Assembly (NCBI GenBank): GCA_019117265.1
Contig: DXAB01000106.1
Location: 1 to 42,457 of the forward strand
Origin: Candidatus Olsenella pullicola
GTDB taxonomy: Bacteria; Actinomycetota; Coriobacteriia; Coriobacteriales; Atopobiaceae
DNA length: 42,457 nucleotides
Reading direction: 5' to 3'
The position numbers and the translations under genes are program-made. Positions within the stretch are counted from its first letter, which is position 1. Every line of letters starts with the position of its first letter. The notes under the pieces were generated by a model. The model worked only from the letters and a program-made list of their open reading frames with translations. It was not told the DNA's origin and did no database searches. Positions 36,281-40,919 of the stretch are shown piece after piece.

Positions 36281-36304
36281 TGATGACAAAGGTGATGACA
36301 AAGG
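36281..36304. repeat. 12-bp tandem direct repeat TGATGACAAAGG x2
   Basis: TGATGACAAAGG at 36281-36292 and 36293-36304; second copy runs into the long palindrome. Confidence 0.85.
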
Positions 36305-36352
36305 TGACAGGGTAGATTGTCATCATGACAAATTACCCTGTCACCTTTGTCA
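36296..36352. repeat. Near-perfect 57-nt palindrome between DUF979 and pcp genes
   Basis: TGACAAAGGTGACAGGGTA (36296-36314) / TACCCTGTCACCTTTGTCA (36334-36352), with concentric inner TTGTCAT-c-ATGACAA (36317-36331). Confidence 0.9.
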
Positions 36353-38280: not shown

Positions 38281-39888
38281 ATGGCAGCAAAGCCCCAGAC
38301 CCTTGCCACCACCTCCGCCTTTGAGGTGCTGGGCCCCGTCATGGTGGGCCCGTCGTCCTCACACACGGCCGGTGCCCTGCGCTGCGCGCGCGTGGCCGCG
38401 TCCCTTCTCAAGGGCCGCATCGCCCGCGTGCGCTTCACGCTCTGGAACTCCTTCGCGCACACCTACCACGGCCACGGAACCGACCGCGCGCTCGTGGCGG
38501 GCATCCTCGGGCTTGACACCGATGACGAGCGCATTCGCGATGCCTTTGAGCTCGCGCGCGAGAGGGGCCTGGCCTTCGAGTTTATCGAGGCGGGCGATGA
38601 CTCCTCCGTTCACCCCAACACCGTGGACATTGACATGGAGACCGAGGGTGGCACCCGCTGCCAAGTTCGAGGCGAGAGCCTGGGCGGCGGCAAGATGCGC
38701 ATCAGCCGCATCGACGGCGTTGGCGTGGACATCACGGGCGCCTACGCCACGCTCTTTGTTGCGCACAAGGACACCCCGGGCATCCTCGCCTCCCTCACTC
38801 ACCTGCTCGCCATGGCGGAGGTCAACATCGCCTTCTGCCGCACCTATCGCACCGAGCAGGGCGGCCGCGCCTACTCCGTGTTTGAGACCGACGGCGCGCC
38901 GGACGCCTCCGTGCTGCCCATGATCCGCCGCATCCGCGACGTGAGCTTCGCGACCTTCATCTCCGTGCCGGGATCCGCCTCCGCTACGGCGCCCGGCGTC
39001 ACCGCGGAGGAGCTCTTTGACGACGGTGCCCAGCTGCTCGACGCCTGCGCCAGGCGCGGCCTCTCCATTGGCGGCGTCATGGAGCTGCGTGAGCGCGGAC
39101 TTACCGGCGAGAAGTTCGCGCAAGAGTCCATGCGCCGCATCATTCAGGTCATGCGCGACGAGACGAGCTCGCCCATCGCAAGCCCCAAGCGCTCTCTCGG
39201 TGGCTTCATCGGTGGCGAGGCGCAGCTCGTGAGCAGGGGCGCCGACAGCTGGGGGGCGAGCCTCATGGGCGAGGTCCAGACCACGGCCGTTGCGCGCGCG
39301 ATGGCCGTGCTCGAGCGCTCCGCCGCGATGGGCGTCATCGTGGCCGCCCCCACCGCTGGCTCTGCCGGCGTGGTCCCCGGCTGCGTGCTTGCCGTTGCCG
39401 ACGCCATCTGCGCTGACGACGAAGCCGTCGCGGGTGCTCTCTGGTGCGCCGCCGCGGTGGGGCTCAACATCCAGACGCACGCCTGCGTGGCGGGAGCCGA
39501 GGGCGGCTGCCAGGCCGAGGTTGGCTCAGCTGCGGCAATGGCCGCAGCAGCACTCGTGGAGCTGCTCGGCGGCGCGCCTGAACAGGCGCTCACGGCGAGC
39601 TCCCTCGCCATCTCCAACCTGCTCGGCCTTGTCTGCGATCCCGTCGGTGGCCTAGTTGAGATTCCCTGCCAGGCACGAAACGCCATCGGCGTGGCAGCGG
39701 CCTTCTCCGCAGCCCAGCTCGCGCTCTCAGGCGTTTCCTGGCTCATCCCCTTTGACGAGGTCGTGAGCGCCATGGCCGAGGTCGGCCACGCCCTTCCCTC
39801 ACGCCTGCGCGAGACGGCACGCGGAGGCCTTGCCGCCACGCCGGCAGCCCACGCTGCCTGCGCCGCCTGCGGGGCCTGCGGGCGCTGA
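38281..39888 (+). CDS. sdaA: L-serine ammonia-lyase, iron-sulfur-dependent, single-chain (beta+alpha fused)
   Basis: FEVLGPVMVGPSSSHTAGALRCARVA; ACT-like region KDTPGILASLTHLLAMAEVNIAF; AAPTAGSAGVVPGCVLAVAD; GLVCDPVGGLVEIPCQARNAIG. Confidence 0.94.
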   Translation: MAAKPQTLATTSAFEVLGPVMVGPSSSHTAGALRCARVAASLLKGRIARVRFTLWNSFAHTYHGHGTDRALVAGILGLDTDDERIRDAFELARERGLAFEFIEAGDDSSVHPNTVDIDMETEGGTRCQVRGESLGGGKMRISRIDGVGVDITGAYATLFVAHKDTPGILASLTHLLAMAEVNIAFCRTYRTEQGGRAYSVFETDGAPDASVLPMIRRIRDVSFATFISVPGSASATAPGVTAEELFDDGAQLLDACARRGLSIGGVMELRERGLTGEKFAQESMRRIIQVMRDETSSPIASPKRSLGGFIGGEAQLVSRGADSWGASLMGEVQTTAVARAMAVLERSAAMGVIVAAPTAGSAGVVPGCVLAVADAICADDEAVAGALWCAAAVGLNIQTHACVAGAEGGCQAEVGSAAAMAAAALVELLGGAPEQALTASSLAISNLLGLVCDPVGGLVEIPCQARNAIGVAAAFSAAQLALSGVSWLIPFDEVVSAMAEVGHALPSRLRETARGGLAATPAAHAACAACGACGR

Positions 39889-39976: not shown

Positions 39977-40042
39977 TGCGCAAAATCGCCGCTCGTGCCA
40001 CAAACAGCCAGTGCCATGCGCAAAAGTCGCGTTCGTGCAACA
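39977..40042 (-). repeat. Pair of 26-bp repeats, 40-bp period (minus orientation)
   Basis: TGCGCAAAATCGCCGCTCGTGCCACA (39977-40002) and TGCGCAAAAGTCGCGTTCGTGCAACA (40017-40042). Confidence 0.88.
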
Positions 40043-40134
40043 TCGAATTGGCTGCCTAGGGCTCTTTTGATTTAATTTATTATTGTGCTATCTGGGCTTT
40101 TGCTATCCGGATACTCTGGGCACCCCTAAAAACA

Positions 40135-40200
40135 TGTGGCACGAACGAGGATTTTGCGCACGTGAGCTTCCATTTGTGGCACGAGCGGCGTTTTTGCACA
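40135..40200 (+). repeat. Pair of 26-bp repeats, 40-bp period (plus orientation, inverted relative to 39977-40042)
   Basis: TGTGGCACGAACGAGGATTTTGCGCA (40135-40160) and TGTGGCACGAGCGGCGTTTTTGCACA (40175-40200). Confidence 0.88.
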
Positions 40201-40295: not shown

Positions 40296-40919
40296 CTATT
40301 CCCCCGCCGCCTCTGCGCACTTGTGGCGATACGCCGCAGCGATCACGTCCACGCAGCCCTCGCGCCCAAGCTTGGCTCGGTTGACCACGAGGTCCTTGCC
40401 GTCGGTCATCTTCCACTTGCCGCCCGAGTAGCGCTTGTAGAACGCCTCGCGCGCCTTCTGCATGCGCTTGACGAGCTTCTTGCCCTCCTTCTTGGAGAGC
40501 CCGCGCTTGGCGCGCACGATCTCAACGCGGTCGCCCAGCGGCGCCGTCACCAGCACCGCAATGTGATTGGGGTTGTTGCGCAGCAGGTAGTCCGAGAGAC
40601 GCCCCTCGATGATGCAGCTCTTGGTGGCCGCCAGGTCAAGGATGACCTGCGACATCGAGTGGAAGAGGCGATCGGAGGCGCTGCGCGTGTCCACGCGATC
40701 GGGCAAAAAGGCCATGAACTCGTCGGCAAGCTGCTCGTCGTAGGCCGCCATCTGGTCGATGGGGTCTCCCGTGCGCAGGCTCGAGCGCACGAGAAGCTCG
40801 TTGTCATAGAGCGGGATGCCCAGCTCAAGCGAGAGCATCTTGCCGATCTCGTGTCCCTCCGCGCCAAAGTCGCGTGCGATGGTGATGATAACGGGATGCG
40901 CGGGGTGCTTGGGTGCCAT
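40296..40919 (-). CDS. Cytidylate kinase-like family protein
   Basis: VIITIARDFGAEGHEIGKMLSLELGIPLYDNELL; CIIEGRLSDYLLRNNPNHIAVLVTAPLGDRVEIV. Confidence 0.88.
   Translation of the reverse strand: MAPKHPAHPVIITIARDFGAEGHEIGKMLSLELGIPLYDNELLVRSSLRTGDPIDQMAAYDEQLADEFMAFLPDRVDTRSASDRLFHSMSQVILDLAATKSCIIEGRLSDYLLRNNPNHIAVLVTAPLGDRVEIVRAKRGLSKKEGKKLVKRMQKAREAFYKRYSGGKWKMTDGKDLVVNRAKLGREGCVDVIAAAYRHKCAEAAGE

Follow-up and report, generated by a model that had tools for sequence, protein, structure and literature searches.

A helix-phased family of four-arm intergenic repeats with lineage-specific arms in Thermophilibacter (Atopobiaceae)

Between the convergent genes sdaA and a cytidylate-kinase-like gene, four copies of a 26-bp unit stand as two facing pairs, and the question raised by this locus is whether they represent a local duplication, a mobile repeat, a protein-binding array or a structured RNA. 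The window analyzed here is a DNA stretch of 42,457 nucleotides from a Thermophilibacter/"Olsenella" MAG of the Atopobiaceae, whose assembly comprises 2.26 Mb in 209 contigs. The four units described in an earlier note on this DNA were recovered at the same positions and strands (Table 1), with 0 expected from 100 dinucleotide shuffles, and the two 67-nt arms of the element are 78% complementary. Pfam matches (PF03313/PF03315 and PF13189) confirmed the location between the two convergent genes, and the central 92 bp (40043-40134) are AT-richer, as had been noted, with 39/92 G+C by our own count. Read outward, the inner units carry ACGAAC and the outer units ACGAGC, an observation of the note that is correct for the window element but not as a rule, other copies deviating from it. 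Stops or partial openness in five/six frames, together with spacings that are no multiples of 3 (40 and 41 bp, and core steps of ~10 bp), indicate that the element is not coding, in agreement with the note. A second copy of the cytidylate-kinase-like region, 96% identical, is present in the same assembly (G000:C95, L156), perhaps reflecting a strain mixture in the MAG.

Table 1. Parts of the window element and its neighbors (window positions), and arm dialects of the family with their carriers.
Feature	Position	Strand	Sequence	Basis or carriers
sdaA (L-serine dehydratase), 88 bp from element	38281..39888	+		Pfam PF03313, PF03315, ACT
Outer arm unit 1	39977..40002	-	TGTGGCACGAGCGGCGATTTTGCGCA	exact match to genome-wide pattern
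Left-pair spacer, 14 bp	40003..40016	.		unconserved between orthologues
Inner arm unit 2	40017..40042	-	TGTTGCACGAACGCGACTTTTGCGCA	pattern match
Core, 92 bp (102 bp between inner 16-mers)	40043..40134	.		core model R1
Conserved AT-rich core part	40069..40083	+	GATTTAATTTATTAT (family consensus GATTnnAnnnTnATnT)	alignment of 43 cores
Core motif	40090..40096	+	ATCTGGG (family AMCTGSG)	family distances quantised in 10.0-bp steps
Inner arm unit 3	40135..40160	+	TGTGGCACGAACGAGGATTTTGCGCA	pattern match
Right-pair spacer, 14 bp, unconserved	40161..40174	.		arm comparison, orthologue comparison
Outer arm unit 4	40175..40200	+	TGTGGCACGAGCGGCGTTTTTGCACA	pattern match
Cytidylate-kinase-like gene, 95 bp from element	40296..40919	-		Pfam PF13189
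Arm dialect			TGTGGCACGA..TTTTGCRCA	window, G039, G040
Arm dialect			TTCATCACGA..TTTTGCA	T. gallinarum
Arm dialect			CATCACACGA..TTTTGC	An820, G007, G014
Arm dialects			CGCTACACGA and TGCTGCACGA	An270
Arm dialect			CATGGACTGAAGG..AATTGCRCA	G016, G031
Arm dialect			CATCGCACGAAGGGGCAAAC	G015
Arm dialect			GTGTCACTCG..TTTTGCAAA	G037
Arm dialect			CACCTCACGAAGGGC	G038
Arm dialect			CCACCGGCCCGAAGG..TTTTGCA	G009

The window genome contains 22 units of the window arm type, of which 20 sit in five complete elements (C38, which is the window element, C23, C50, C105 and C153) and two in solitary remnants (C97 and C148). All five complete elements have the layout < 40 < 117/118 > 40 >, and additional elements, two in C109 and another in C144, are built from a second arm type, CGCTACACGAnnGnnnnTTTTTCC. 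Across the genus, a general pair pattern consisting of CACGAnnGnnnnTTTT and its repeat at ~40 bp is present in 14 of 31 genomes, many with several to more than 12 loci, and is hardly found in the rest of the order; the reversed pattern, used as control, gave 0 matches. Named carriers include T. gallinarum, T. provencensis, Olsenella sp. An270 and 'O. uli' An820, in addition to MAGs. Core sequence models (A1 and R1) built from 43 cores also find elements in genus genomes that have no CACGA-type arms, with core matches in 25/31 genus genomes at E ≤ 0.5 and in 20/31 at E ≤ 0.003. Altogether 111 distinct elements of this family, whose members are about 220 bp long, were assembled from ~15 species, in catalogues drawn from the pattern and model searches that are incomplete. 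The search for further genomic copies and for the 40-bp spacing in relatives, proposed in the note, thus found both, and since the four-unit architecture is common to the whole family, the suggested origin, in which a two-unit module was duplicated and inverted locally, is wrong.

The spacing of the parts follows a strict rule. Across the 111 elements the two units of a pair are 40 bp (190 pairs) or 41 bp (32 pairs) apart and never at another distance within the 38-43 range permitted by the search. Core lengths are only 91-92, 100-102, 109-112, 120-122, 130-131 or 140 bp, and their periodicity yields a Rayleigh R of 0.91 near 9.65 bp; orthologous elements are not independent, and the phasing statistics therefore overstate the number of independent observations. 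The length and distance classes recur at unrelated loci. An AMCTGSG-like motif is found in 83 of the 111 cores, compared with a mean of 8 in shuffled cores, and its distance is nearly always 31/32, 40/41, 51/52 or 60-62 bp to one inner arm and, to the opposite one, 49/50, 58-60 or 69-71 bp, with a best period of 10.0 bp, corresponding to whole helical turns from both inner arms. In the window element, the distance of ATCTGGG to the inner 16-mer is 52 bp on the left and 50 bp on the right, and model R1 matches 40039-40108 with E 2.5e-7, the window element being among the 43 used to build it. Quantisation in 10-bp steps is a property of B-DNA, and phasing of this kind marks a protein complex that has to meet the arms and the core on set faces of the helix.

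Fifty-eight elements could be placed with gene calls from our own self-trained caller, 30 between tandem, 19 between divergent and 9 between convergent genes. The typical element starts 10-30 bp past a stop codon and ends 70-120 bp ahead of the next start. The flanking genes, recognized by eye from their sequence starts (the window pair by Pfam), appear unrelated and housekeeping-like, and a common regulon was rejected on this ground. One complete genome (G007) carries about 18 to 20 elements across both replichores relative to dnaA. Near one element an L31-Coriobacteria ribosomal protein leader (RF03128) was observed at L023:9550-9583.

A structured RNA at the convergent 3' ends, as the note had considered, or a bidirectional terminator would require read-through transcripts to fold into a long hairpin at the inverted arms. 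The palindrome is indeed strong (RNA fold z -5.5, DNA fold z -6.6), TTTT is found on the outer side of the arms, and many elements begin just past a stop codon. The N4 of facing arms, however, can pair in only ~58-60% of cases, most copies have non-complementary spacers, the 19 elements between divergent genes do not fit, and the 10-bp quantisation belongs to DNA. A terminator scan gave no terminator within the window element, and an Rfam search gave no credible match to the element. We consider this alternative very unlikely, and the free N4 together with the divergence of the spacers points to protein-binding DNA rather than to an RNA stem. The window element likewise has no sigma-70-like promoter match, and a dedicated terminator or promoter role was rejected given placement in all gene orientations and the negative scans.

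Each species uses one or two arm sequences across its elements (dialects, Table 1), while the architecture and the core motif are common to all. The elements fall into 47 locus groups, the largest of which have 5-7 members between the same genes, with differing arms. Conservation across 20 pairs of orthologues is 92% for those unit letters that lie outside the search pattern, compared with 65% for the N4, 74% for the spacers, 78% for the core and 81% for nearby flanks; letters inside the search pattern are 98% conserved, a value that is biased by ascertainment and was excluded as evidence. For the window element and its orthologue in genome G040, the left-pair spacer is 0.69 identical and the specified unit letters 0.97. 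Judged from these alignments, the units are under purifying selection and the N4 and spacers are free. With the helical phasing, this bears out the note's reading as a protein-binding array in part, the protein itself being putative. Among cores that share a locus, those under different arm types are 0.560 identical, cores under the same type 0.695 and non-orthologous pairs 0.537. Different-arm cores at one locus are barely above unrelated ones, which suggests either replacement of elements at favored sites or very fast divergence.

Empty sites, which the note had proposed to seek, provided one insertion/empty-site pair and losses with remnants. At the window locus G040 has an orthologous element and T. 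provencensis has lost its own, a remnant of unit 4 being all that is left; a deletion in T. provencensis at the C153 locus again left a remnant. In the opposite direction, T. provencensis carries a 201-bp insertion at a site that is empty in the window genome, with flanks 95-97% identical. The outgroup G042 has a single element at this locus, which makes a gain in T. provencensis the simplest account of the extra copy. Over 180 bp, the insert matches the C50 element of the window genome, which occupies a different locus, with 86% identity. The insert has three units only, and its ends carry 7 and 11 extra bases; it may on this account represent aberrant copying and not transposition. No target duplication is present at its junction, and target-site duplications are absent at ~58 elements.

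Two loci show inversion of the core. At the first, core identity is 87% inverted and 58% colinear with flanks at 93%, and at the second 78% inverted and 56% colinear with flanks at 98%. The arms at the second locus are near-perfect complements within each genome yet differ between genomes, so the inverted arms seem to be homogenised by exchange with each other. These two clean inversions between close relatives, with the arms in place, are what would be expected of an inverton-like switch, in which a recombinase acting at the inverted arms flips the core and thereby switches a promoter. Such a switch is nonetheless highly improbable: most informative orthologue pairs are colinear in the core, the window element lacks a sigma-70-like promoter, 9/58 elements lie between convergent genes, and the homogenised arms fit exchange between inverted repeats during replication or repair.

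The note's REP/BIME-like mobile repeat is supported in part, by the insertion/empty-site pair. A single insertion was caught. Many loci have an element in up to seven species, a pattern that mobile repeats do not usually show and that a fixed host site accommodates as well. MatP/Noc-type site sets and gal-type DNA loops provide precedents for a chromosome-architecture or insulator site of this kind, which would be fixed and non-mobile at transcription-unit borders, its arms co-evolving with a host protein. Species-specific arms at the same loci in up to 7 species, selection on the units, the spread over both replichores of one complete genome, the diverse, housekeeping-like neighbors and the helical phasing are all consistent with it. 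Set against this are the recent insertion at a new locus, the losses and the core flips, and the different-arm cores at one locus (0.56 vs 0.54 for non-orthologous pairs) suggest replacement rather than gradual co-evolution; we regard a fixed architectural site as rather unlikely.

A search for an arm-binding partner found none, and neither of the two candidates examined, RAYT and AbiEi, was supported. AbiEi (PF13338) was not detected in G000, G005 or G013 and was rejected as being undetected in several carriers. RAYT-sized PF01797 proteins resembling Y1 transposases occur in 28/31 genus genomes, with 1-6 diverse copies per genome; their open frames of ~250-320 aa (e.g., G007:C1:1730085-1730417) are unlinked to the four-arm elements. 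Their prevalence, and the REPIN-like dialects and persistence of the elements, would be in keeping with a REP/RAYT (TnpA-REP) system proper that is moved by the Y1 transposases of these genomes. PF01797 was, however, not detected in G005, one of the two genomes richest in core matches, or in G031, which also carries elements, and 12 RAYT loci showed no arm pair and one isolated unit-like match with one mismatch. RAYT was therefore rejected as the partner and, as the units of the four-arm element are also not self-palindromic, a REP/RAYT system is highly improbable. A separate palindromic repeat, (GATGACAAAG)GTGACAGGGTA...TACCCTGTCACCTTTGTCA, lies between two genes at window 36283-36352, and similar palindromes are found in T. 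provencensis (L053:1568-1642) and in G000 C97 (L027 ~2720-2790); this repeat may be the REP family that truly belongs to the RAYT genes.

Taking together the observed architecture, phasing, dialects, unit selection, single gain, losses and inversions, our preferred explanation, which we judge marginally probable, is a genus-wide family of non-autonomous, REPIN/BIME-like elements that form a looped nucleoprotein complex with a putative arm-binding protein. This protein, encoded elsewhere and of lineage-specific dialect, would probably fill all four arms, and the core would be contacted and bent by the same protein or by another, conserved factor. The element is predicted to close into a wrapped or looped complex, a geometry that would explain why every distance is a whole number of helical turns. 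Any catalysis by the complex would permit occasional copying or insertion without target duplication, in a REPIN/MITE-like manner, while exchange between the inverted arms would flip the core and homogenise the arms, and slippage across the palindrome would delete copies. Elements may persist at transcription-unit boundaries either as harmless there or, should they have a host function, as architectural sites. Small interspersed repeats are common in bacteria, and a measurable physical rule is rare among them; here more than 100 natural sequences show four arm sites and a core held to a ~10-bp phase, so that genome sequences by themselves reveal the geometry of a putative nucleoprotein complex. 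Shared loci whose dialects vary from species to species offer a natural system for specificity change of a DNA-binding protein together with tens of sites, and a route to finding the arm-binding protein.

Beyond the genus, the core matches obtained in other genera of the Atopobiaceae have weak scores, and several are flanked by strong inverted arms, which were seen in 0 of 28-29 controls for L341, L292, L333, L297, L295 and L328 and also for L326, L321, L330 and L337; L290 has a perfect 15-bp arm pair. In genome G083, TCACGGAAAAGCGCACTCTG units spaced 30/31 and 41/42 bp apart form long arrays around repeated cores CCTCACCTGGGCAAACGCGG; such arrays also occur at L321, L330 and L337, and one 3.2-Mb genome has 51 core matches. 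We infer that these sister-genus forms and the genus elements are one system. A broader proposal, which we offer tentatively as somewhat short of probable, is an undescribed trans-acting recombination or looping system of the Atopobiaceae, in which a fast-diverging arm-binder with 26-bp dialects particular to each species and a conserved AMCTGSG factor would form helix-phased complexes at tens of intergenic sites, many of them common to several species, and would maintain, flip and spread these sites; the two-arm forms and expanded arrays of sister genera (G092, G073/G074, G051, G064, G129 and G083) would be other states of it. Presence outside the Atopobiaceae was rejected, the order-wide core model giving only the genus, three genomes of the same family and a contig of G154. 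This contig (G154:C99, L140), which belongs to a different family, shows 78-85% alignment identity to the window genome and, over 1.2 kb, 97% to a G040 contig, and a Candidatus Coprenecus contig (L225) has the same arm pattern at its end; both are likely misbinned contigs in public MAGs. Phage origin was rejected, as viral contigs gave no pan-pattern match. In G346, from another family of the order, a dispersed repeat (L137, L138 and L139) with TCACGATGGCGAATTTTTGGC units spaced 22 and 41 bp was rejected as a member, being a different element, and a further dispersed hairpin, GATACGAAGGGACnGTCCCTTCGTATCA, occurs in several Thermophilibacter genomes (L282 ~1660-1710, L029 ~1390-1430 and L375 ~2110-2150). 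The open literature yielded no account of such repeats in Olsenella, Atopobium or Coriobacteria, and the helix-phased, lineage-typed, four-arm intergenic family is apparently undescribed.

REP and REPIN units form hairpins, being short, imperfectly palindromic sequences marked by a GTAG/CGTC tag. The REPIN/REP-RAYT populations described previously consist of short, intergenic, non-autonomous inverted units, with lineage-specific types, several per genome, that persist for long times and are now and then gained or lost (Bertels and Rainey 2011, PMC3116915; PMC8049555). The four-arm elements are similarly intergenic, inverted, non-autonomous, lineage-typed and persistent with occasional gain or loss. 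They differ in that the units are asymmetric bipartite 26-mers in all dialects and not hairpins, have no tag by inspection, and come four to an element with 40-bp spacing, a conserved phased core and no RAYT link. RIP elements have an IHF site between inverted REPs. Literature on such elements includes PMC2229807 and PMC2817692. BIME/RIP elements are inverted REP units around a DNA-bending IHF site or a gyrase site, located between genes. Inverted arms and a conserved AT-rich core between genes are likewise found here, whereas the arms of our family stand in tandem pairs at distances quantised by helical turns, and arm sequence varies between species while the core motif is constant. In lambda-like attP sites and gal-type HU-assisted repression loops, paired arm sites flank a core, complex formation depends on helical phase and the center is bent. 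The four-arm elements share the paired, helix-phased arm sites to either side of a core but exist in tens of chromosomal copies with no integrase or operon attached, and the core is not an inverted repeat; features of a tyrosine-recombinase attP are missing, AMCTGSG being non-palindromic and the housekeeping-like flanking genes including no adjoining integrase. MITEs are similar in being non-autonomous, in their terminal inverted repeats (present in the 111 elements) and in the one insertion relative to an empty site; they differ in the target-site duplication, which is lacking here, and in that the core motif of our family is better conserved between species than its arms. Within the loci retrieved, no ORF-bearing version that might be an autonomous parent transposon was found between arm pairs. 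The family lacks defining REP/RAYT and MITE features that were examined, and is REPIN/BIME-like in lifestyle and attP/gal-loop-like in geometry.
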